Positions 21,398 through 31,387 of a DNA stretch of 64,000 bases are shown here, one piece after another (within the stretch, counting starts at the first letter, position 1; each line of letters opens with the position of its first letter). The DNA comes from Sinimarinibacterium flocculans (GTDB lineage Bacteria > Pseudomonadota > Gammaproteobacteria > Nevskiales > Nevskiaceae): assembly GCF_003201205.1 (NCBI RefSeq), contig NZ_QICN01000007.1:62001-126000 (forward strand). The letters run 5' to 3'. The notes beneath the pieces are model-generated. The model ran no database searches and had not been told where the DNA came from. It saw only the letters and a list, made by a program, of their open reading frames with translations. The position numbers and the translations under genes were made by a program.

Positions 21398-22553
<1,156 letters not shown>

Positions 22554-22573
22554 GCGGGGCTCTGGCTGGACGG

Positions 22574-24172
22574 CTACAGCGTGCCGTGTTCCTTGGTATC
22601 GAGAAAGCGGACGTCGGGAAAGCGTTCCTGCGTCATGCTCAGATTGACGGCGCTGGACGCCAGATAAACGAGATCGCCGTAGTGGTCCTTGGCGACCCGG
22701 GTCTCGTTCTTGTCGACGAAGGCCTCGAGCTGCGTCGCGGTATCGGCCTCGATCCAGCGCGCGCAGTGCACCTGCACCGGCTCGAACACGCAATCCACGC
22801 CGTACTCGTCCTTGAGCCGATACTGCACGACGTCGAACTGCAGCACGCCGACGGCGCCGAGAATGATGTCGTTGTTGGAGACCGGACGGTAGACCTGCGT
22901 TGCGCCCTCCTCGGACAGCTGGTCGAGGCCCTTGTTCAGCTGCTTGGCCTTGAGCGGGTCCTTGAGGATCACGCGGCGGAACAGCTCCGGCGCGAAGTTG
23001 GGAATGCCGGTGAAGCGCAGGGTCTCGCCCTCGGAGAACGAGTCGCCGATGGCGATCGTGCCGTGATTGTGCAGACCGATGATGTCGCCCGGGTAGGCGG
23101 CATCCACCGTCTCGCGCTCGGAGGCCATGAAGGTCAGTGCGTTGGCAATGCGCACCGGCGCGTTCAGGCGCACGGAGTGCAGCAGCATGCCGCGGCGGTA
23201 GATCCCCGAACACACGCGCAGGAAGGCGACGCGATCGCGGTGCTTGGGGTCCATGTTCGCCTGGATCTTGAACACGAAACCGCTGAAACGCTCGCCGCCG
23301 GGCGGAACGGTCTGCTCGCCGCCGGCGACCAGCGCGGTACGTGGCAGCGGCGGCGGCGCCCACTGGGTGAAGCCGTTGAGCAGTTCGCGCACGCCGAAAT
23401 TGCTGATCGCCGAGCCGAAGAACACCGGCGTCTGCTTCGCCGCGCGGTACTGTTCGAGATCGAACTCGGTGCCGGCCATCTGCAGCAGCTCGATCTCGTC
23501 GCGCAGCGTCTGGTAGACGCTGCCGAAGCGCTCGGCCACCGCCGGGTTCATCAGGCCGTCGACGGTCTCGATCTCGGAGATGCGGTGCTTGTCGCCGGAA
23601 TACAGGTAGAAGCGGTCTTCGAGCAGGTGATAGACCCCCTTGAAGTCGCGCCCCATGCCGACCGGCCAGGTGATCGGCGTGCATTGCAGGCCCAGCACCT
23701 TCTCGACCTCGTCGAGCAGTTCCAGCGGCGGCCGGCCCTCGCGGTCGAGCTTGTTGACGAAGGTGACGATCGGCGTATCGCGCAGCCGGCAGACTTCCAT
23801 CAGCTTGATCGTGCGCGCCTCGACACCCTTGGCCGCGTCGATCACCATCAGCGCCGAGTCGACCGCGGTCAGCGTACGGTAGGTATCCTCGGAAAAGTCC
23901 TCGTGACCCGGCGTGTCGAGCAGGTTGACGATGCAGCCGTTGTACGGGAACTGCATCACCGAGGTCGTCACCGAGATGCCGCGCTGCTGTTCCAGCGCCA
24001 TCCAGTCCGAGGTGGCGTGACGGCTCGCCTTGCGGCCCTTGACCGTGCCCGCCATCTGGATCGCGCCGCCGAACAGCAACAGCTTTTCCGTCAGCGTGGT
24101 CTTGCCCGCGTCGGGATGGGAAATGATGGCGAACGTGCGGCGACGCGCCGCCTGTTCGGCGACTGCACTCAT
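22574..24172 (-). CDS. prfC: Peptide chain release factor 3
   Basis: A 532-residue translational GTPase, close to the 529 residues of E. coli RF3, which recycles RF1/RF2. The G1 motif is [19 protein letters not shown]3 is [18 protein letters not shown]4 is FVNKLDREG, and the switch region contains [18 protein letters not shown]. The start was set at 24172 ([10 protein letters not shown]); an ATG ten codons upstream is less like the family. It heads a likely unit with the two downstream minus-strand genes. Confidence 0.97.
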
Positions 24173-24260
24173 GACCAGAACCTGCTCCGGAAGGCCGCGC
24201 ATTCTACCGGAGACGCGTCGGTCAAGACGCGCCTACACTGGACGCCCCCCACCGCGGAAC

Positions 24261-25334
24261 ATGGACATGGCCGCGAAAACGACAAAGACGGTCGCGCCGC
24301 TGCTGCTGGGCCTGTGCCTCGCGGCCTGCGGCGGCGGCGGCGGCGGAGACGACGGCCCGCAGCCGACCGCCACACCGACGGCCAGCGCCACACCCGTGCC
24401 GACGACGGCCCCGACGCCCCTTCCGACCGCCGTCCCGACGCCGACGGCCACGCCCGTCGTCGGCAGCGACCTGAGCACGGTGCGCAGCGTCACGCTCGGC
24501 CAGCTCGAACACCGTTACCGGCTGTACGTGCCGGCGCGGCTGGTGTCGGCCGCCGACGTGCCGCTGGTGATCTCGCTGCACGGCGGCGGCACCGACGCCG
24601 CGAACCATGACGTCTTCACGCGACTGCGCCTCACCGCCGCGGCCCAGGGCTTCGCGCTGATGACGCCCGACGGCTACGGCCAGACCTGGAACGCGGGCAC
24701 CTGCTGCGCGCCGTCGTCGGCCTTCCGCATCGACCATGTCGGTGCGATCGACGCGATGCTCGACGATGTCGCCACCGTGATCGCCGTCGACGGCGACCGC
24801 GTCTTCGCGACGGGCCATTCCAACGGCGGCATGCTCGCGTACCGGCTGGCCTGCGAACTTTCGGAGCGCATCGCGGCGATCGCGCCCAACGCCGCCGTGA
24901 TGATGGACACCGATCTGGACACGACACCGCCCACGGAGGTCTACGCCTGACAGCCCACGCGCCCGGTGCCGGTGCTGCACATCCACGGCCTGGCGGACCG
25001 GTGCACGCCCTTCGAGGGCGGCGTCAGCGTCGGCGTCGCCGGCGGCACGCGCAAGTCGGCGGCCGAGACGATCGACTTCTGGGTGTCCAACAACCGCTGC
25101 ACGCTGGCGCCGCTGCTGGCCAGCTACAGCAACGGCGCCGCACGCTGCGAGCAGTACAGCCTGTGCCAGGCCGGCGCCAACGTCGAGTTGTGCACGATCG
25201 AGGGCGCCGGTCACATCTGGCCCGGCAACGGCTTCTCGCCGGCGGCCGGCGACGCCTGCGGCGGCACCGGCAGCGACGATCTCGACGCCAACGGCTACAT
25301 CTGGGAGTTCTTCCGCACGCACCCGCGGCGCTGA
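24261..25334 (+). pseudogene. LpqC-like esterase lipoprotein interrupted by one in-frame TGA
   Basis: One continuous frame encodes a polyhydroxybutyrate-depolymerase/LpqC-type esterase but is broken by TGA at 24948-24950. Before it: a lipoprotein signal with lipobox LAAC, a Pro/Thr-rich linker, the oxyanion loop SLHGGGTD and nucleophile motif GHSNGGML. After it, in the same frame: TRPVPVLHIHGLADRC with the expected Asp, and EGAGHIWPGNG with the catalytic His. The stop sits where relatives commonly have Cys, one base from TGC/TGT. A recent nonsense mutation is likeliest; readthrough or sequencing error cannot be excluded. The separate halves would lack a complete triad. Confidence 0.8.
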
Positions 25335-25344
25335 GCGCCGCCGC

Positions 25345-26463
25345 TCACCACGGCATCCACAGGCGCCACTGCAGCGACTCGTCGCGCCAGTCGTCCACAC
25401 CACTGCGCCAGTGGTAACTGAGCTGCAGCGTCGGCAGTTCGACCGGCCACTGCCGGGCGAGCCAGTCCGACAGGTCCAGGCTCAGCGCGAGATCCTCGGT
25501 CGGCACCGTGTGGTCGGGCAGGAACCAGTAGCGGTCGCCGGACTGCCACTGCGCGCTGAGCGCCACCGTGCCGATCTCGCGCCGAAGACGGGCTTCCATT
25601 GCCCAGTCGTCCGTACGGTCCGCCCCGGCGGTCTCCCGCCATGCCAGCCCGCTGTGCGCGGTCCAGGCGCCGATGCGCCGCTCGTGATCGAGCCCGACCT
25701 CCAGCGCCTGCGCCGCCGTGGCGACGTCGGTCGAGCCGGCCTCGACCGCCAGGACGCGCAAGCCCAGCCGGCGTCCGGCCGCCTGCCAGTGTGCGCCGGC
25801 GGACCAGGTCTGGGCGTCCGGGCCGAGGACGTCGCCGGGCATGCCGCTGACGCTGCAGGCCCGTCCGCCGAGTTCCGCGCGCCAAGCCGCGGACGACAGC
25901 GGCACCGCGAGGCGTGCATGCACCGGGCAGTCGAGCGCACTGCGCGCATCCCAGGGCAAGGCCGCGAGGTCCCACTGCAGCCGCACGTCGGCGAAGGCCG
26001 GCGCCCAGCGCAGATCGAATCCATGCCGGCGGGTCTCGATGTCAGTCTCGTCCAGCCACAGGCTCTCGCGCTCGTCACGCATCACCAGGGTCAGCGGCGC
26101 GGGGCCGGCCACGGGCAGCTGCAGACGCGCTTCCTGGCCGATGCGCTGCCGGCCCAGCGTCGTCGGCAGCAGATTGGCCCGCCAGCGATCGGCCTCGTCC
26201 GGCGTCAGCAGATCGCCCGTGTGCAGGATGTAACCCGACTTGAGACTGAGCAGGGCATCGATCGCCTGAAGCGAGACCTCGCCGGCAAAGACCGGCTGGT
26301 CGGCAACCGTCATCAGCGGCATGGCGGCATCGAGGCTCAGCGCCAGCTGCGTTCCGGGGATCGACCCGATGTCCAGTGGCTGCTCGAGCCGCAGGGCCGG
26401 CGGCGCCTGCGCGCATCCTGCGAGCCACAGCGCCACCAGGGCGCCAGCACCACGAGCGTGCAT
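25345..26463 (-). CDS. Putative outer-membrane lipoprotein next to the hvf cluster
   Basis: A 372-residue protein of unknown family. It has a lipoprotein signal (LVALWLAGCAQAPP) with lipobox LAGC. The rest is rich in short alternating strands with Trp and Arg (DLRWAPAFADVRLQWDLAAL, AHSGLAWRETAG, LQLSYHWRSGVDDW) and ends in LQWRLWMPW; a C-terminal aromatic and beta-rich content suggest an outer-membrane-associated beta structure. AAGGA precedes the ATG. It lies 91 nt after hvfC on the same strand and might handle the peptide or its metal; this is inference from position only. Confidence 0.7.
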   Translation of the reverse strand: MHARGAGALVALWLAGCAQAPPALRLEQPLDIGSIPGTQLALSLDAAMPLMTVADQPVFAGEVSLQAIDALLSLKSGYILHTGDLLTPDEADRWRANLLPTTLGRQRIGQEARLQLPVAGPAPLTLVMRDERESLWLDETDIETRRHGFDLRWAPAFADVRLQWDLAALPWDARSALDCPVHARLAVPLSSAAWRAELGGRACSVSGMPGDVLGPDAQTWSAGAHWQAAGRRLGLRVLAVEAGSTDVATAAQALEVGLDHERRIGAWTAHSGLAWRETAGADRTDDWAMEARLRREIGTVALSAQWQSGDRYWFLPDHTVPTEDLALSLDLSDWLARQWPVELPTLQLSYHWRSGVDDWRDESLQWRLWMPW

Positions 26464-26554
26464 CGTTCCTTGATCTGGACAGGCGCGCGGCATCCTGCCG
26501 ACGGCCGGGAAAACGTGAAGGTGTCAGGGTGTGACCGCCGAAGCGCGGCGCGGT

Positions 26555-27343
26555 TCAGCCGGCGACGGAGCGTCGGGTGCCCAGCAGGATGTCGCGCGTG
26601 CGCAACTGCTCGAAGATGCGTGCGCCCTCCGTCACGACCACCTCCGGCTGCGGATGCGCAAGCTCGCCGGCGATCTGCAGCAACAGTTCGCGCCCACTGG
26701 CCTGCGGCTGCGCTTCGATCAGCGCCGTCAGCCGGGCGGTGACGGCATTGATTTCCATGAAGCGCACGTTGTCGGCGCGGTCGCGGTTGACGATCAGCCA
26801 GGTCGGCGCGTCACCGGGCACCTGCGGCTGGAAGTCCGGCCCGATGCGGTGCACCGGAAACGTGTACCCCAGGGTCCATGCCAGCGGCGAAAGCACCGGC
26901 GGGGCGGCCAGGGGATCGCCATTCGGATCGGGCGCGTCGGGCCGTCGGGCCGGTGCGATCTCCAGCGGCGACACCGACAGCTCGAGCTCCACCCATTCGT
27001 AGTGCGCCAGCTCGCGCAGGAACGGCGGATCGTCGGCGTGCTCGCCGCGCTCGTCCTCGAGAAAGCGCAGGAACTCCTCCGGCACGCGGTGGAATTGCGG
27101 GGCGATGCTGCGGTGACGGGCGTAGAAATCGCGCACGCGCGCATGCCAGACGGCGTCGTCGGACAGCTTGCGCAGCACCGGGAAAGCCGCGGCGAGGCAG
27201 TTTTCGACGTTGTTGTAGAACAGCTCGCGGTAGATCTTCAGCCGCCGGTCCTCGATGTCGGCGACCTCGCAGCGCGACGGATCGCGCAGATGCGCCGCGA
27301 AAGCCTGCTGGCGGGCGCGAAAATCGATGCCCGCCTCAGGCAT
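26555..27343 (-). CDS. hvfC: HvfC-like DUF2063 RiPP maturation partner
   Basis: A 262-residue protein of the DUF2063 family (HvfC/BufC). The N-terminal domain has the signature [20 protein letters not shown], and [20 protein letters not shown] and [17 protein letters not shown] follow. In related clusters this protein partners the DUF692 oxidase, presenting the precursor to it. The reading frame overlaps hvfB by 8 nt, so the two are co-translated. The old DNA-binding annotation of this family is not supported by what is visible here. Confidence 0.9.
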
Positions 27344-28184
27344 TGACGGCCCGACCCGCCTGTCCGGCCTGCGCCTGCAGGCTGCGGATGTGATCGATCT
27401 CGCCCAGCAGGGTGTCCAGCGGCGGAATGTTGAAGTCGCGTTCGAGCAGCGTCGGCTGCACGCCGAAGCGCCCATAGGCCTCTTGCAGCAGGGTCCAGAC
27501 CGGGTCGATCACGCTGGCGCCGTGGGTGTCGACGCGCAGATCCTCGGCCTCGACGTAGTGCCCGGCGATGTGCATGTAGCGCACGCGCTCACGCGGCAGG
27601 GCGTCGAGGAAGCGCAGCGGGTCGTAGCGGTGATTGATGCTGTTGACGTAGACGTTGTTCACGTCGAGCAACAGGTCGCAGTCGGCGCGCTCGACCACGG
27701 CCTTGATGAACTCGATCTCGCTGAGCTCGGTGGCCAGCGGCGCGTAGTAGCTGGCGTTCTCGAGCGCGATGCGCCGTTCGAGAATGTCCTGCACGCGCCG
27801 CACGCGCGCCGCCACGTAGTCGACCGCCGCCTCGGTGAATGGGATCGGCATCAGGTCGTACAGGTGCCCGTCGTCGGAGCACCAGGTCAGGTGTTCGGTG
27901 TAGTCGGCGATGCCGTGGAGATCGAGAAACGCCTTGATCTCGCGAACGAACGCCTCGTCGAGCGGCGCGGGGGCGCCGATCGACAGCGATAGGCCGTGCG
28001 TGGCGAACGCGTAGCGTTCGGTCAGCGCACGGAATTGCCGGCCCAGCCGTCCGCCGATGCGCATCCAGTTCTCGGGGGCCACCTCGAGAAAATCGGCGCA
28101 GGCGCCTCGACGTTCGCCGAGCGGCGCAAGCAGTGCGCGACGCAGGCCGAGGCCCGCGCCGCGCACGCCGGCAACGGCCGTCAT
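27336..28184 (-). CDS. hvfB: HvfB-like DUF692 (MNIO) peptide-modifying oxidase
   Basis: A 282-residue TIM-barrel protein of the DUF692/MNIO family: multinuclear non-heme iron enzymes that oxidise cysteines of ribosomal peptides. Conserved segments with likely metal ligands are [62 protein letters not shown] and [15 protein letters not shown] start at 28184 ([10 protein letters not shown]); further upstream the frame reads backwards through the hvfA repeats and is spurious. It lies 31 nt after hvfA and overlaps hvfC by 8 nt. The substrate is very probably the EGKCG-repeat peptide. Confidence 0.93.
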
Positions 28185-28215
28185 GCGGACACGCGTTGCA
28201 CGATGCGGCGGGCGA

Positions 28216-28518
28216 TTACTCGCCCTTCTCGCCGCACTTGCCTTCGCCGCACTTGCCTTCGCCGCAGCTGCCTTCGGCCTTCTTCTCGCCGCACTTGCCC
28301 TCGCCACACTTGCCTTCGCCGCAGCTGCCTTCGGCCTTCTTCTCGCCGCACTTGCCTTCGCCGCACTTGGCTTCGCCCGACTTGTGATCGCCAGCCGAGG
28401 CGACCATGTAGCCGGCGCCGAGGTCCGAGGCCTGGAACACCGAGGCCTGCGCGGCCATGCCGGTCAGGGCAAAGGCGGCACCGAGCGCGGCGACGAGCGG
28501 TTTACGGTTGCTGTTCAT
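28216..28518 (-). CDS. hvfA: HvfA-like EGKCG-repeat RiPP precursor
   Basis: A 100-residue secreted precursor. Residues 1-25 are a Sec signal peptide ([19 protein letters not shown]). A short spacer leads to a Cys/Lys/Gly/Glu-only tail with eight cysteines: one EAKCG, five EGKCG and two EGSCG motifs. EGKCG is the motif modified by HvfB/HvfC in Haemophilus-type clusters, where the product binds copper. AAGGAG lies 6 nt before the ATG. The tail is built from a 57-bp tandem repeat, so its length probably varies between strains. The periplasmic metal-buffer role is inferred from the family. Confidence 0.92.
28225..28378 (-). repeat. 57-bp tandem repeat encoding EGKCG/EGSCG units
   Basis: Two complete 57-bp units (28225-28281 and 28282-28338) differ at only two bases; a third partial unit runs to about 28378. 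Each full unit encodes 19 residues holding two EGKCG, one EGSCG and an EKKA spacer. The two differences keep the protein sequence unchanged, so the peptide is under selection. Confidence 0.9.
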
Positions 28519-28543
28519 CTTGAATCTCCTTGAGGGGTTGCGC

Positions 28544-28566
28544 CCGGATGGCGAAATGCCGTCCGG
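28544..28566 (-). promoter_or_regulatory. Leader hairpin between hvfX and hvfA
   Basis: CCGGATGGC (28544-28552) and GCCGTCCGG (28558-28566) form a 9-bp stem with one G-U pair and a 5-nt loop. It lies 25 nt upstream of hvfA in the 97-nt gap after the DoxX gene. No U tract follows, so processing, stabilisation or attenuation between the two genes are all possible. No copper-responsive operator was recognised. Confidence 0.4.
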
Positions 28567-28615
28567 TAGTCACCGGGATGATCCGGCAGCCGCGCGGGCG
28601 CCGACGCGACTGCGG

Positions 28616-29218
28616 TTACTGCGGTACGGGCATGAGGCGCTTTCGGATCCAGTGGTCCACCGAAACATAGCGCCCGGCGCCGGTAAAGAACAACGACAAC
28701 AGCATGACAAGGTAGGTCGCGGCGAACTCGATGCCGTTGTTGAGCATCACCAGGCTGCCGTGCTCGGTGAGGTAACCGTAGTCGCCGTGCTGACGCAGCA
28801 GCGCCTTGGCCTGCACCAGCCGTTCGGTCGCCATCATGGTGCGATCGGTGGCGAACAGGCCCGATCCCTCTGCGATCGCGAGCCAGCCGTTGTCCCAGTG
28901 CACGGCGAAGACCGCCACCAGCATCGTCACCATCAGCGGGATCGCGACCCAGCGCACCGCCAGCCCGAGCAGCAGCAGCACGGCGCCGCCGAGTTCCGCC
29001 GCAGTGGCCAGCGCTGCGAGAACCGTCGGGAACGGCAGTCCCAGCCCCCAGTCGGGGTTGCCGAACCATTGCACGGTGCCGTCGAAGCCGGTCAGCTTGT
29101 TCCAGCCGGCCATCCAGAACACCGGCGCCAGATACAGGCGCAGCAGGAGCGGCGCGACGAAATCCGCCGCACGGCTGCGGTCGAGAACGGTCTGCAGGCG
29201 CAGCGCGGCTGCGAACAT
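28616..29218 (-). CDS. hvfX: DoxX-family membrane protein, HvfX-like
   Basis: A 200-residue DoxX/DoxD-type membrane protein with four predicted helices. Visible are LLLRLYLAPVFWMAGWNKL in helix 1, AELGGAVLLLLGLAVRWVA and the loop AVHWDNGWLAI. DoxX proteins accompany many MNIO RiPP clusters (called HvfX there). Here it is the promoter-proximal gene, whereas precursor-first order is more usual. The longer DNYGYLTEHG-like loop before the last helix suggests a periplasmic contact site. Function in copper handling or electron supply is inferred. Confidence 0.85.
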   Translation of the reverse strand: MFAAALRLQTVLDRSRAADFVAPLLLRLYLAPVFWMAGWNKLTGFDGTVQWFGNPDWGLGLPFPTVLAALATAAELGGAVLLLLGLAVRWVAIPLMVTMLVAVFAVHWDNGWLAIAEGSGLFATDRTMMATERLVQAKALLRQHGDYGYLTEHGSLVMLNNGIEFAATYLVMLLSLFFTGAGRYVSVDHWIRKRLMPVPQ

Positions 29219-29323
29219 GAAGCAATCCAGGGAGTGACGGGAGTCCGCATCCTAGCCAGCGCTTCGCATCGGCACCGCCACGCAGCGTCCGGGTTTCATG
29301 CCCGAAACGCCGGTGCCGGGGCT

Positions 29324-31387
29324 TCAGGCCGCCGCGGCGCGCGCCTCGAAGGTACGCGCCCACTCCACGAACTGGTCCTCGGGAATCGCGCGCGTGTAGA
29401 GGAAGCCCTGCTGGACCGAGCAGCCGAGGTCGCGCAGACGGCGTGCGTCCTCCTCGGTCTCCACGCCCTCGACGACCAGCGAGATGCCCAGGCGCGCGGC
29501 CAGTTCGCTCATCGAGCGGATGATCTCCGCCGCGCGCGTGTTCTGTGCCGCGGCGCGCACGACGATCGGATCGATCTTGATGCGGTCGATGCGGAACCGG
29601 TACAGGTGCGACAGCGACGAGTAGCCGGTACCGAAGTCGTCGAGGCACAGGCGCACGCCGCTGTCGCGCAGGGCATCGAGAATCTCCGCGCACTGGTCGA
29701 GATTGCCGATCAACGCGGTCTCGGTGATCTCCGCGATCAGGTGCGAAGGGTCGAGGCCGGCCTCGGTAAGGGCCTCGCGGCAGATGTGCAGGATGTGCGG
29801 CGACAGCAGCTTCGCCGAAAGGTTGAACGACACCGTCAGGTTGAAGCCGCGCTCCGACCAGCCGCGCACCGCGCGGCAGGCCTGGACGAGCACGTTGCGG
29901 GTCATCTCGCGAATGACCTCGGAACTCTCGGCGATCAGCATGAACTCGCCCGGCAGGACGACGCGTCCGTCGGGCTGGCGCCAGCGCACCAGCATCTCGG
30001 CGCCGACGACCTTGCCGCGCGCGGCGTCGATCACCGGCTGGAAGAACGGCACGAACTGGCCCTCGCGCAGGCCCAGGCGGATCTGCTCGGCCAGCGCCAG
30101 ATGCTTGCGCAGCCGGTGCGTATGCCCGCGCTCGCCGAAGTGCAGACTGCCGGGTTCCTGCGTCTGCGCGTGGCGCATCGCCTCGAGACTGACGTTGACG
30201 TACTCCTCGGCGTCGCGGGCATCGTCCGGATAGATCGCCGCACCCGCCGCGAGGCTCAGGATGAAGCGCTGGCCCTCGACCTCCAGCGGCGTACCGAGCC
30301 GCGAGAAAGCCTCCGCGGTGATGCGCTTGAGGTCGGCCCGGGTCACGGCCTCGGCAATGCCGCGGTCCACGAGCACACCGAGCACCTGGGGTTCGATCCT
30401 GAAGACGGAAACCGGCATCGGATCGAGCGCGTACAGACGCTGCGCCGCGGCGCGCATCACCGCCTCGGCAATGCGGAAGCCGAAGCCGCTGCGCAGCGTG
30501 TCGTAGGTTTCGATGCCGATCAGGATCAGGCCGTGCGTGCCGTCGATGGGCCGCAGACGGCGCACCTCGCGCAGTTCGGCATCTAGGCTGTTGCGGTTGG
30601 CGATGCCGGTGCCGGGGTCTTCATAGGCGATGCGGCGGATGTGTTCCGCCTGCGCCTGCAGCTTGTGGATCGCGCGCACGATGTCGCCGAACTCGTCGCC
30701 GGTTTCCTGCAGCATGCGGCTCGGCTGATGCCCGGTCAGCACCGCATTGAGACTGCCGGTGACCGCGCCGAGCGGGCGGATCAGACGCCGGTATGCCCAG
30801 ACGCTCAGGCCCAGCGTCAGCAGCAGGGCACCGCCGACGCTCGCGAGCGCGATGCCGATCTGCCCACGCAGGCGCGCAAAGCCGTCGAGCGCCGCCGCCA
30901 GCGCGCCGTTGTTGTTCTCGTCGACGAGCGCCGCGAGCGTGCGCGAGGCGCGGTACTGCAAGGCAAAGGTCAGGCCGACCAGTTGCTCGGCGGATTCCGG
31001 CGTCAACGGGCCCTGCAGCAGCAGCGCCCGGACGTTCAGGGCCGCATCGTCCAGGTCGCGCCGCAGGTTCGCGATCGCCTCGCCGTCGGCATCGGTGAAG
31101 AAGCGCAGCTGGCCGCGCACACCGTCGAGTTCCTGCTCCAGGCGCAGCAGCGTCGCCGATGGATCGCCGCCTTCGATCGCCAAGCGCCGCGCGCGCTCGG
31201 CCTGCGCATGGACCTCGACCAGAGCGTTGTCCATGACCACGGTCATCGCGATACGGTTCGCGCGGCCGCGCAGCTCCGGCTCCACGCTGCGGTCGGACCC
31301 CAGGGACGGCAGGATCAGCATGCCCGCCACGACTATGGCGAGATTCACCAGCACGATCACTGCGATGAACTTGGTCCGAACCGTCAT
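29324..31387 (-). CDS. HAMP-GGDEF(degenerate)-EAL cyclic-di-GMP phosphodiesterase
   Basis: A 687-residue inner-membrane protein. Helices near residues 7-29 and 180-198 bracket a periplasmic helical sensor, followed by a HAMP (RRLIRPLGAVTGSLNAVL). The GGDEF-like domain keeps DPGTGIANRNSLDAE but has lost the active GG(D/E)EF loop (VFRIEPQVLGVLV), so it should be non-catalytic. The EAL domain has AEMLVRW (EML instead of EAL), AEITETALI, LDDFGTGYSSLSHL, KIDPIVV, VEGVETEEDA and CSVQQGFLYTRAI, a complete metal/base set. Net activity is predicted to be c-di-GMP hydrolysis. Confidence 0.92.
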   Translation of the reverse strand: MTVRTKFIAVIVLVNLAIVVAGMLILPSLGSDRSVEPELRGRANRIAMTVVMDNALVEVHAQAERARRLAIEGGDPSATLLRLEQELDGVRGQLRFFTDADGEAIANLRRDLDDAALNVRALLLQGPLTPESAEQLVGLTFALQYRASRTLAALVDENNNGALAAALDGFARLRGQIGIALASVGGALLLTLGLSVWAYRRLIRPLGAVTGSLNAVLTGHQPSRMLQETGDEFGDIVRAIHKLQAQAEHIRRIAYEDPGTGIANRNSLDAELREVRRLRPIDGTHGLILIGIETYDTLRSGFGFRIAEAVMRAAAQRLYALDPMPVSVFRIEPQVLGVLVDRGIAEAVTRADLKRITAEAFSRLGTPLEVEGQRFILSLAAGAAIYPDDARDAEEYVNVSLEAMRHAQTQEPGSLHFGERGHTHRLRKHLALAEQIRLGLREGQFVPFFQPVIDAARGKVVGAEMLVRWRQPDGRVVLPGEFMLIAESSEVIREMTRNVLVQACRAVRGWSERGFNLTVSFNLSAKLLSPHILHICREALTEAGLDPSHLIAEITETALIGNLDQCAEILDALRDSGVRLCLDDFGTGYSSLSHLYRFRIDRIKIDPIVVRAAAQNTRAAEIIRSMSELAARLGISLVVEGVETEEDARRLRDLGCSVQQGFLYTRAIPEDQFVEWARTFEARAAAA

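Follow-up and report, generated by a model that had tools for sequence, protein, structure and literature searches.

The closest described relatives of the genes studied here yield peptides whose cysteines are modified by a multinuclear non-haem iron oxidase (MNIO, DUF692) and a partner protein. We analysed a cluster of this kind, hvfX-hvfA-hvfB-hvfC, and the lipoprotein gene that follows it, referred to here as LIPO, in a 64-kb stretch of Sinimarinibacterium flocculans DNA (hereafter the window). We consider it very likely that the four hvf genes form an ordinary captophorin cluster of the HvfA/fontiphorin type, and that LIPO is a separate neighbour that the copper peptide probably does not require and that probably does not depend on the peptide.

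The fontiphorin cluster fonABC of Fontimonas thermophila (PMC13097082) shares with the window an EGKCG precursor, an MNIO, a DUF2063 partner and the NCBI family Nevskiaceae, in which NCBI taxonomy places both Fontimonas and Hydrocarboniphaga. As described in that paper, however, fon consists of A, B and C only and has seven modified sites, whereas the precursor encoded in the window has eight Cys, of which two lie in EGSCG units, and a DoxX gene stands in front. The oxazolin operon of Haemophilus influenzae, hvfABC with hvfX, contains the same four gene families and EGKCG repeats, but its precursor has six core Cys against eight in the window (PMC13097082, PMC13419390). Gonophorin (ngoABC, PMC13097082) and bulbicupramide (mmrABC, PMC12538549), which come from other taxa, also combine an MNIO and an RRE partner with a modified Cys peptide that carries EGKCG repeats. 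The bufferins Buf1 and Buf2 resemble the window in their MNIO, DUF2063 protein, frequent DoxX protein, Sec signal and copper buffering, but belong to other precursor families (PMC12452194).

The core genes and the HvfA precursor

The four core genes and LIPO all lie on the minus strand and would be transcribed in the order hvfX, hvfA, hvfB, hvfC, LIPO. The first gene of the cluster, hvfX (28616-29218), encodes a DoxX-family membrane protein of 200 amino acids (aa), which scored 240.8 bits against the NCBIfam model NF050144 (cut-off 80) and 88.5 bits against Pfam DoxX. It is followed after 97 nt by the precursor gene hvfA (28216-28518; 100 aa) and, after another 31 nt, by hvfB (27336-28184; 282 aa), which overlaps hvfC (26555-27343; 262 aa) by 8 nt (27336-27343). 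Translation and gene calls thus confirmed the coordinates, the one-strand order, the eight-Cys repeats and the overlap given in an earlier annotation made from the letters of this DNA (the sequence-only reading). Its view of the four core genes as a Hvf-type modified-peptide system also stands, with matches to curated NCBIfam models far above chance level, and a role in copper handling is suggested by relatives.

HvfB, the MNIO of the cluster, scored 429.8 bits against NF003818 (cut-off 360) and 339.6 bits against Pfam PF05114. Its best solved relative was 3bww (E 1e-72), and a plasmid search returned 351 records, every one below 60% identity. The protein carries Arg15, Arg16, Asp250 and Phe251, identical to the selectivity and catalytic residues of FonB; enzymes of the FonB type are reported to be steered by Arg15, Arg16 and the catalytic Asp with the adjoining Phe (PMC13097082). 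HvfC, the DUF2063 partner with a recognition domain (PME1), scored 291.5 bits against NF050145 (cut-off 142) and matched Pfam PF09836 and PF22106. In a single-sequence search it had no solved relative at E ≤ 0.001; 3DEE is named as a member of the HvfC family (PMC13097082). HvfA matched the repeat-domain model NF050137 in two stretches (43.0 bits; cut-off 19.5). With the full-length equivalog model NF050188 it scored 53.5, under the cut-off of 95, and a control relative was likewise under it (41.3).

An MNIO, a DUF2063 protein and a DoxX protein are common to this cluster and the bufferins, and the BufB model NF050167 does match, at 263.2 bits. However, this score lies below the cut-off of 310 while the HvfB model passes; therefore, we assign the cluster to the EGKCG/HvfA branch and not to the bufferins in the strict sense. 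Against a Buf1 or Buf2 system also speaks the precursor, which has EGKCG repeats and, at E ≤ 1, no match to DUF2282 or to any other Pfam family. The chance that such a system is present seems negligible, and the label of bufferin type in the sequence-only reading does not hold in its strict sense.

The chemistry, export and copper role of the cluster would follow those of characterised relatives (PMC13097082, PMC12452194). HvfC would bind the signal-peptide end of HvfA, after which HvfB and HvfC would oxidise Cys in every xxxCG unit to 5-thiooxazole (-4 Da each) while the peptide is still cytoplasmic. Modified HvfA would then be exported by Sec and tie up excess copper in the periplasm, and HvfX may serve as an inner-membrane accessory. 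In Haemophilus, the Sec signal is reported to act much like a leader peptide (PMC13419390), and in heterologous fon and hvf systems A, B and C alone were enough to obtain modified peptide (PMC13097082).

We also weighed the possibility that the cluster is decayed or non-functional, given that an adjoining esterase gene is broken by an in-frame stop and that close relatives are without hvf. Yet the four core genes are open, overlap or are closely spaced and match curated models, and the key residues of HvfB are conserved. Decay is, in our view, highly improbable.

According to the translation, all eight Cys of HvfA sit in xxxCG units within the core repeat array (residues 49-96; 28231-28374, minus strand), which consists of five EGKCG, two EGSCG and one EAKCG. 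Residues 47-60, a stretch of 14, are identical to residues 67-80 of fontiphorin as printed in PMC13097082, the fragment solved by NMR. By eye, the N-terminus resembles a signal peptide, with a charged part, then a hydrophobic part and then AQA/S.

The two EGSCG motifs had been singled out as unusual by the sequence-only reading. In 37 precursor frames from the loci of relatives, Lys precedes Cys in 167 of the 198 xxxCG units and Ser in 6 (this count excludes the window, did not catch the L079 precursor and contains a few stray matches). EGSCG itself appeared three times in these frames, each time in the precursor of L083, from another family of the order. FonBC is reported to tolerate Ala, Arg and Thr at the residue before Cys, while Phe and Glu severely impaired processing (PMC13097082); the main text of that paper contains no EGSCG. 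The motif is uncommon yet found elsewhere, at a position where some substitutions are tolerated. EGSCG units are a minor variant and are probably modified.

In eight loci, hvfB is preceded by an HvfA-like precursor with two units only ([ED]H[AS]CG, then EG[GLM]CG) and without Lys before either Cys. These are L057, L061, L062 and L112 (Hydrocarboniphaga-type), L082 and L107 (Nevskia-type), and L110 and L111 (the window's genus). None of the six that we scanned (L057, L061, L062, L082, L111 and L112) reached the NCBIfam cut-offs for HvfA, while the control L050 passed the repeat model. In L057, L110 and L111, Ser stands in place of the HvfB Phe which is in contact with the residue ahead of Cys; L061, L062, L082, L107 and L112 keep the Phe. 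It is possible that these precursors represent a distinct, under-annotated captophorin subtype.

Gene order was recounted with tblastn, as our own gene caller overlooked or misread a number of genes in loci of high G+C content. The recount covered the loci of all 37 genomes of the bacterial family that were counted as carrying hvf, the window included, and left out L113, which has a more distant MNIO. In 20 out of the 20 family loci with HvfX, its gene stands before the hvfA that precedes hvfB. The other 17 of the 37 have no HvfX within 4 kb on the same strand, and one of them (L108) is cut by a contig end. Additional irregularities were an extra hvfA further upstream in L073 and L140 and an hvfC that was not found in L115. 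Three loci outside the family had the orders A-B-C-X, A-B-X-C and no X at all; the core genes have been described as occurring "in various combinations" (PMC12452194). HvfX in first place is the habit of this family, and the idea that a promoter-proximal DoxX gene is unusual had to be dropped.

LIPO and its predicted fold

LIPO (25345-26463, minus strand) encodes a protein of 372 aa with a LAGC lipobox at residue 17; a start at the alternative in-frame ATG at 26493 would lengthen it by 10 residues. It matched no model of Pfam or NCBIfam at E ≤ 1. A set of 17 LIPO members likewise had no porin match in either library at this threshold and gave just weak unrelated matches. A search for solved relatives by sequence returned three chance-level matches (best E 0.31).

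The structural model, built from eight sequences and of moderate confidence (pLDDT 71.6, pTM 0.59), has 18 strands between residues 39 and 369. Its fold matches were porins, siderophore receptors and other outer-membrane barrels, with a best Foldseek E of 2.8e-05. The Z scores of structural alignments peaked at 16.5 (278 residues aligned at 6.9 A), and mitochondrial barrels also reached Z above 14. Since scores are similar for unrelated barrels, these matches support the fold class but no finer assignment. The overall barrel fold is thus predicted to be common to LIPO and the OprD/Occ porins, AlgE, chitoporin and siderophore receptors; unlike those barrels, LIPO has an N-terminal lipobox and no sequence family match. 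We predict that it is a lipid-anchored outer-membrane barrel, and its earlier description as an unrecognised, beta-rich protein of outer-membrane type agrees with the lipobox, the modelled 18 strands and the lack of a Pfam or NCBIfam match.

Cys179 and Cys203 are invariant in the 17 aligned members and, by residue counting, face each other on neighbouring strands of the model. This makes a disulfide between them plausible. LIPO is fast-evolving, with 31% identity between the window and genome G005, compared with 76% for HvfB. The pairwise ratio of nonsynonymous to synonymous substitution rates (dN/dS) of LIPO was 0.53 for G001 and G003, both without hvf, and 0.04 for G028 and G040, the latter without hvf. 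In pairs where all genomes have hvf, it was 0.74 (G012-G050), 0.38 (G017-G036), 0.17 (G017-G028) and 0.12 (G014-G025). Relaxed selection on LIPO after the loss of hvf, as a sign of dependence, was rejected because dN/dS does not discriminate.

Distribution of LIPO in relation to hvf

The clearest comparison comes from close relatives in which one of the two is present without the other. In G001 and G003, both of the window's genus and 99% complete, LIPO stands in the block EAL protein-LIPO-prfC-desaturase-MFS, which is the block of the window minus hvf and minus the esterase. In the window, the EAL protein is a GGDEF/EAL protein of the upstream flank (29324-31387, minus strand; Pfam EAL 222 bits, GGDEF 42 bits), with a homologue at the equivalent position in G001, G003, G005, G006 and G007. 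The gene prfC for peptide chain release factor 3 (22574-24202, minus strand; Pfam RF3_C 166 bits) is a conserved anchor of the locus, and its position was compared across 58 genomes of the family. No match to the MNIO (PF05114) or DUF2063 (PF09836) families was found anywhere in the genomes G001, G003 and G040. The last of these is the third LIPO genome without hvf and constitutes weak evidence, as it is 93% complete and its locus lies at a contig end. G006 and G007 show the reverse, namely EAL protein-hvfABC-prfC with no LIPO match, and in a tree of prfC they are together the sister of G003. As relatives keep LIPO after losing the peptide genes, LIPO is most likely a mere neighbour of the cluster.

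A profile search found LIPO in 21 of the 58 family genomes; an initial scan of the genome collection with the single LIPO sequence had found no relative. Among 369 genomes of the class, two had a match, the window's own and a marginal one of 19 bits, in a search that scored at most five candidates per genome and may miss distant members outside the family. Presence of hvf was scored from matches at E ≤ 1e-90 and from fragments of at least 65% identity, with weaker MNIO matches (29-50% identity) taken as no hvf. The split-gene genomes G053 and G032 were scored as having hvf, and the broken LIPO of G011, in two frames, as present. On this basis, 18 genomes have both, 3 have LIPO only, 19 have hvf only and 18 have neither.

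Several observations weigh against reading LIPO as a mere neighbour. Genomes with LIPO have hvf in 18 cases out of 21, compared with 19 out of 37 for the others (Fisher p 0.011), and a tree-based simulation gave p values of 0.026 and 0.051. The latter used the midpoint-rooted prfC tree, which holds 50 of the 58 genomes (17, 2, 18 and 13 in the four classes) and omits G035, G040, G044, G045, G047, G051, G054 and G056 as having no long prfC sequence. The linkage of LIPO to prfC is also not clearly tighter than that to hvf, as the gene next to it on the same strand is hvfC in 6 of the 21 genomes (G000, G014, G025, G029, G037 and G041) and prfC in 7 (G001, G003, G012, G039, G049, G050 and G053). 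In G014, G025, G029 and G041, LIPO lies about 1 kb from hvfB, with prfC 6-30 kb off. Additionally, a consensus scan found no terminator-like or promoter-like site in the 91-nt gap between hvfC and LIPO in the window, and co-transcription of the two is possible given a gap without a terminator-like site. Over 22400-29500, the same scan gave 2 terminator-like sites, where 2.7 were expected, and none that resembles a promoter, where 0.4 were expected. The intergenic stretches of the locus showed strong predicted folding, but they are G+C-rich and were not compared with shuffled sequences.

These observations could be explained if LIPO were an outer-membrane accessory that is specific to this family, serves the captophorin system as exporter, receptor or anchor of the modified peptide, and was later kept for another use in the few genomes where hvf was lost. 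Besides the weak association and the predicted outer-membrane barrel, the arrangement of the genes is in line with such a role. LIPO lies directly 3′ of hvfC, on the same strand and at 71-91 nt, in the window and in the Hydrocarboniphaga-type loci L057, L060 and L062, and at 391-403 nt in two loci from a different genus. On the other hand, it persists in G001 and G003 without hvf and is missing from 19 hvf genomes. It is unlinked to hvf in G011, stands on another contig in G042, and lies 12-14 kb away on the opposite strand in G017, G028 and G036. There is no clear LIPO relative in the 368 other genomes of the class, yet HvfB-type genes occur well outside the family. Moreover, the heterologous fon and hvf systems mentioned above needed no such protein for peptide modification (PMC13097082). 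We regard an accessory role as unlikely.

The location of both genes offers another account of the association. LIPO and prfC are at most 1.5 kb apart in 13 of the 21 genomes, and LIPO and hvfB, with hvfC in between, at most 2 kb apart in 10 of them; of the 19 hvf genomes that lack LIPO, 12 have hvf no more than 10 kb from prfC. Thus, the weak association is likely due to the prfC locus, which both occupy. A variant of the accessory role, in which the captophorin system recruited LIPO to pass or hold the copper-loaded peptide at the outer membrane and the barrel outlived the peptide genes in a few lineages with another ligand, appears quite improbable to us.

The sequence-only reading had taken LIPO for a possible partner of the modified peptide and had named co-occurrence with hvf as a check. 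Co-occurrence was indeed seen, but it is a weak association and not exclusive, with 3 of the 21 LIPO genomes lacking hvf. A partner role is not supported but keeps a small probability, and a dedicated hvf partner was rejected as the main interpretation in view of the hvf-free LIPO genomes, the LIPO-free hvf genomes and the shared prfC locus. A narrow literature search found no title or start of an abstract that mentions such a lipoprotein with hvf genes, from which we do not claim absence from print.

Flanking genes and the place of the cluster

Several other genes of the locus were recorded. Between prfC and LIPO, the window contains a gene for a PHB-depolymerase-type esterase (24261-25334, plus strand), the reading frame of which carries an in-frame stop codon, TGA, at 24948-24950. 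An intact homologue occupies the same place in the relative G005 (L056:6792-7754), and the interrupted gene is either a pseudogene or a sequencing error. In two genera, a Wadjet-like gene set lies between LIPO and prfC (L060:428-6415, L054:1748-6507 and L057:15680-18000). PADLOC recognised a JetC-like protein in L054 and L060 and a JetD-like protein in L060, while L057 was assigned by sequence likeness alone; the two front genes of the set match no PADLOC model at E ≤ 1e-5. Nevskia-type loci have a gene for a LigB-type ring-opening dioxygenase between hvfC and LIPO (L077:4654-5442, L082:4838-5617, L108:1123-1917 and L119:8835-9668), of which L077 was searched for the LigB family and matched it. 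G001, G003 and G007, which belong to the window's genus, have a pair of two-component-like genes and a gene for a small protein of periplasmic type, all upstream of their EAL gene (L048:3448-6220, L049:3748-6461 and L111:460-3198). For L048, the small protein gave matches to LTXXQ (CpxP-type) and Metal_resist; the remainder was assigned by sequence likeness.

The cluster of S. flocculans is very likely one more captophorin, close to the best-characterised example of a class of which more than 20,000 members have been reported (PMC13097082). LIPO lies outside the families described in the libraries that were searched and could be worth studying in its own right. The comparison across the family keeps a conserved genomic neighbour from being taken for a new component of the captophorin system.

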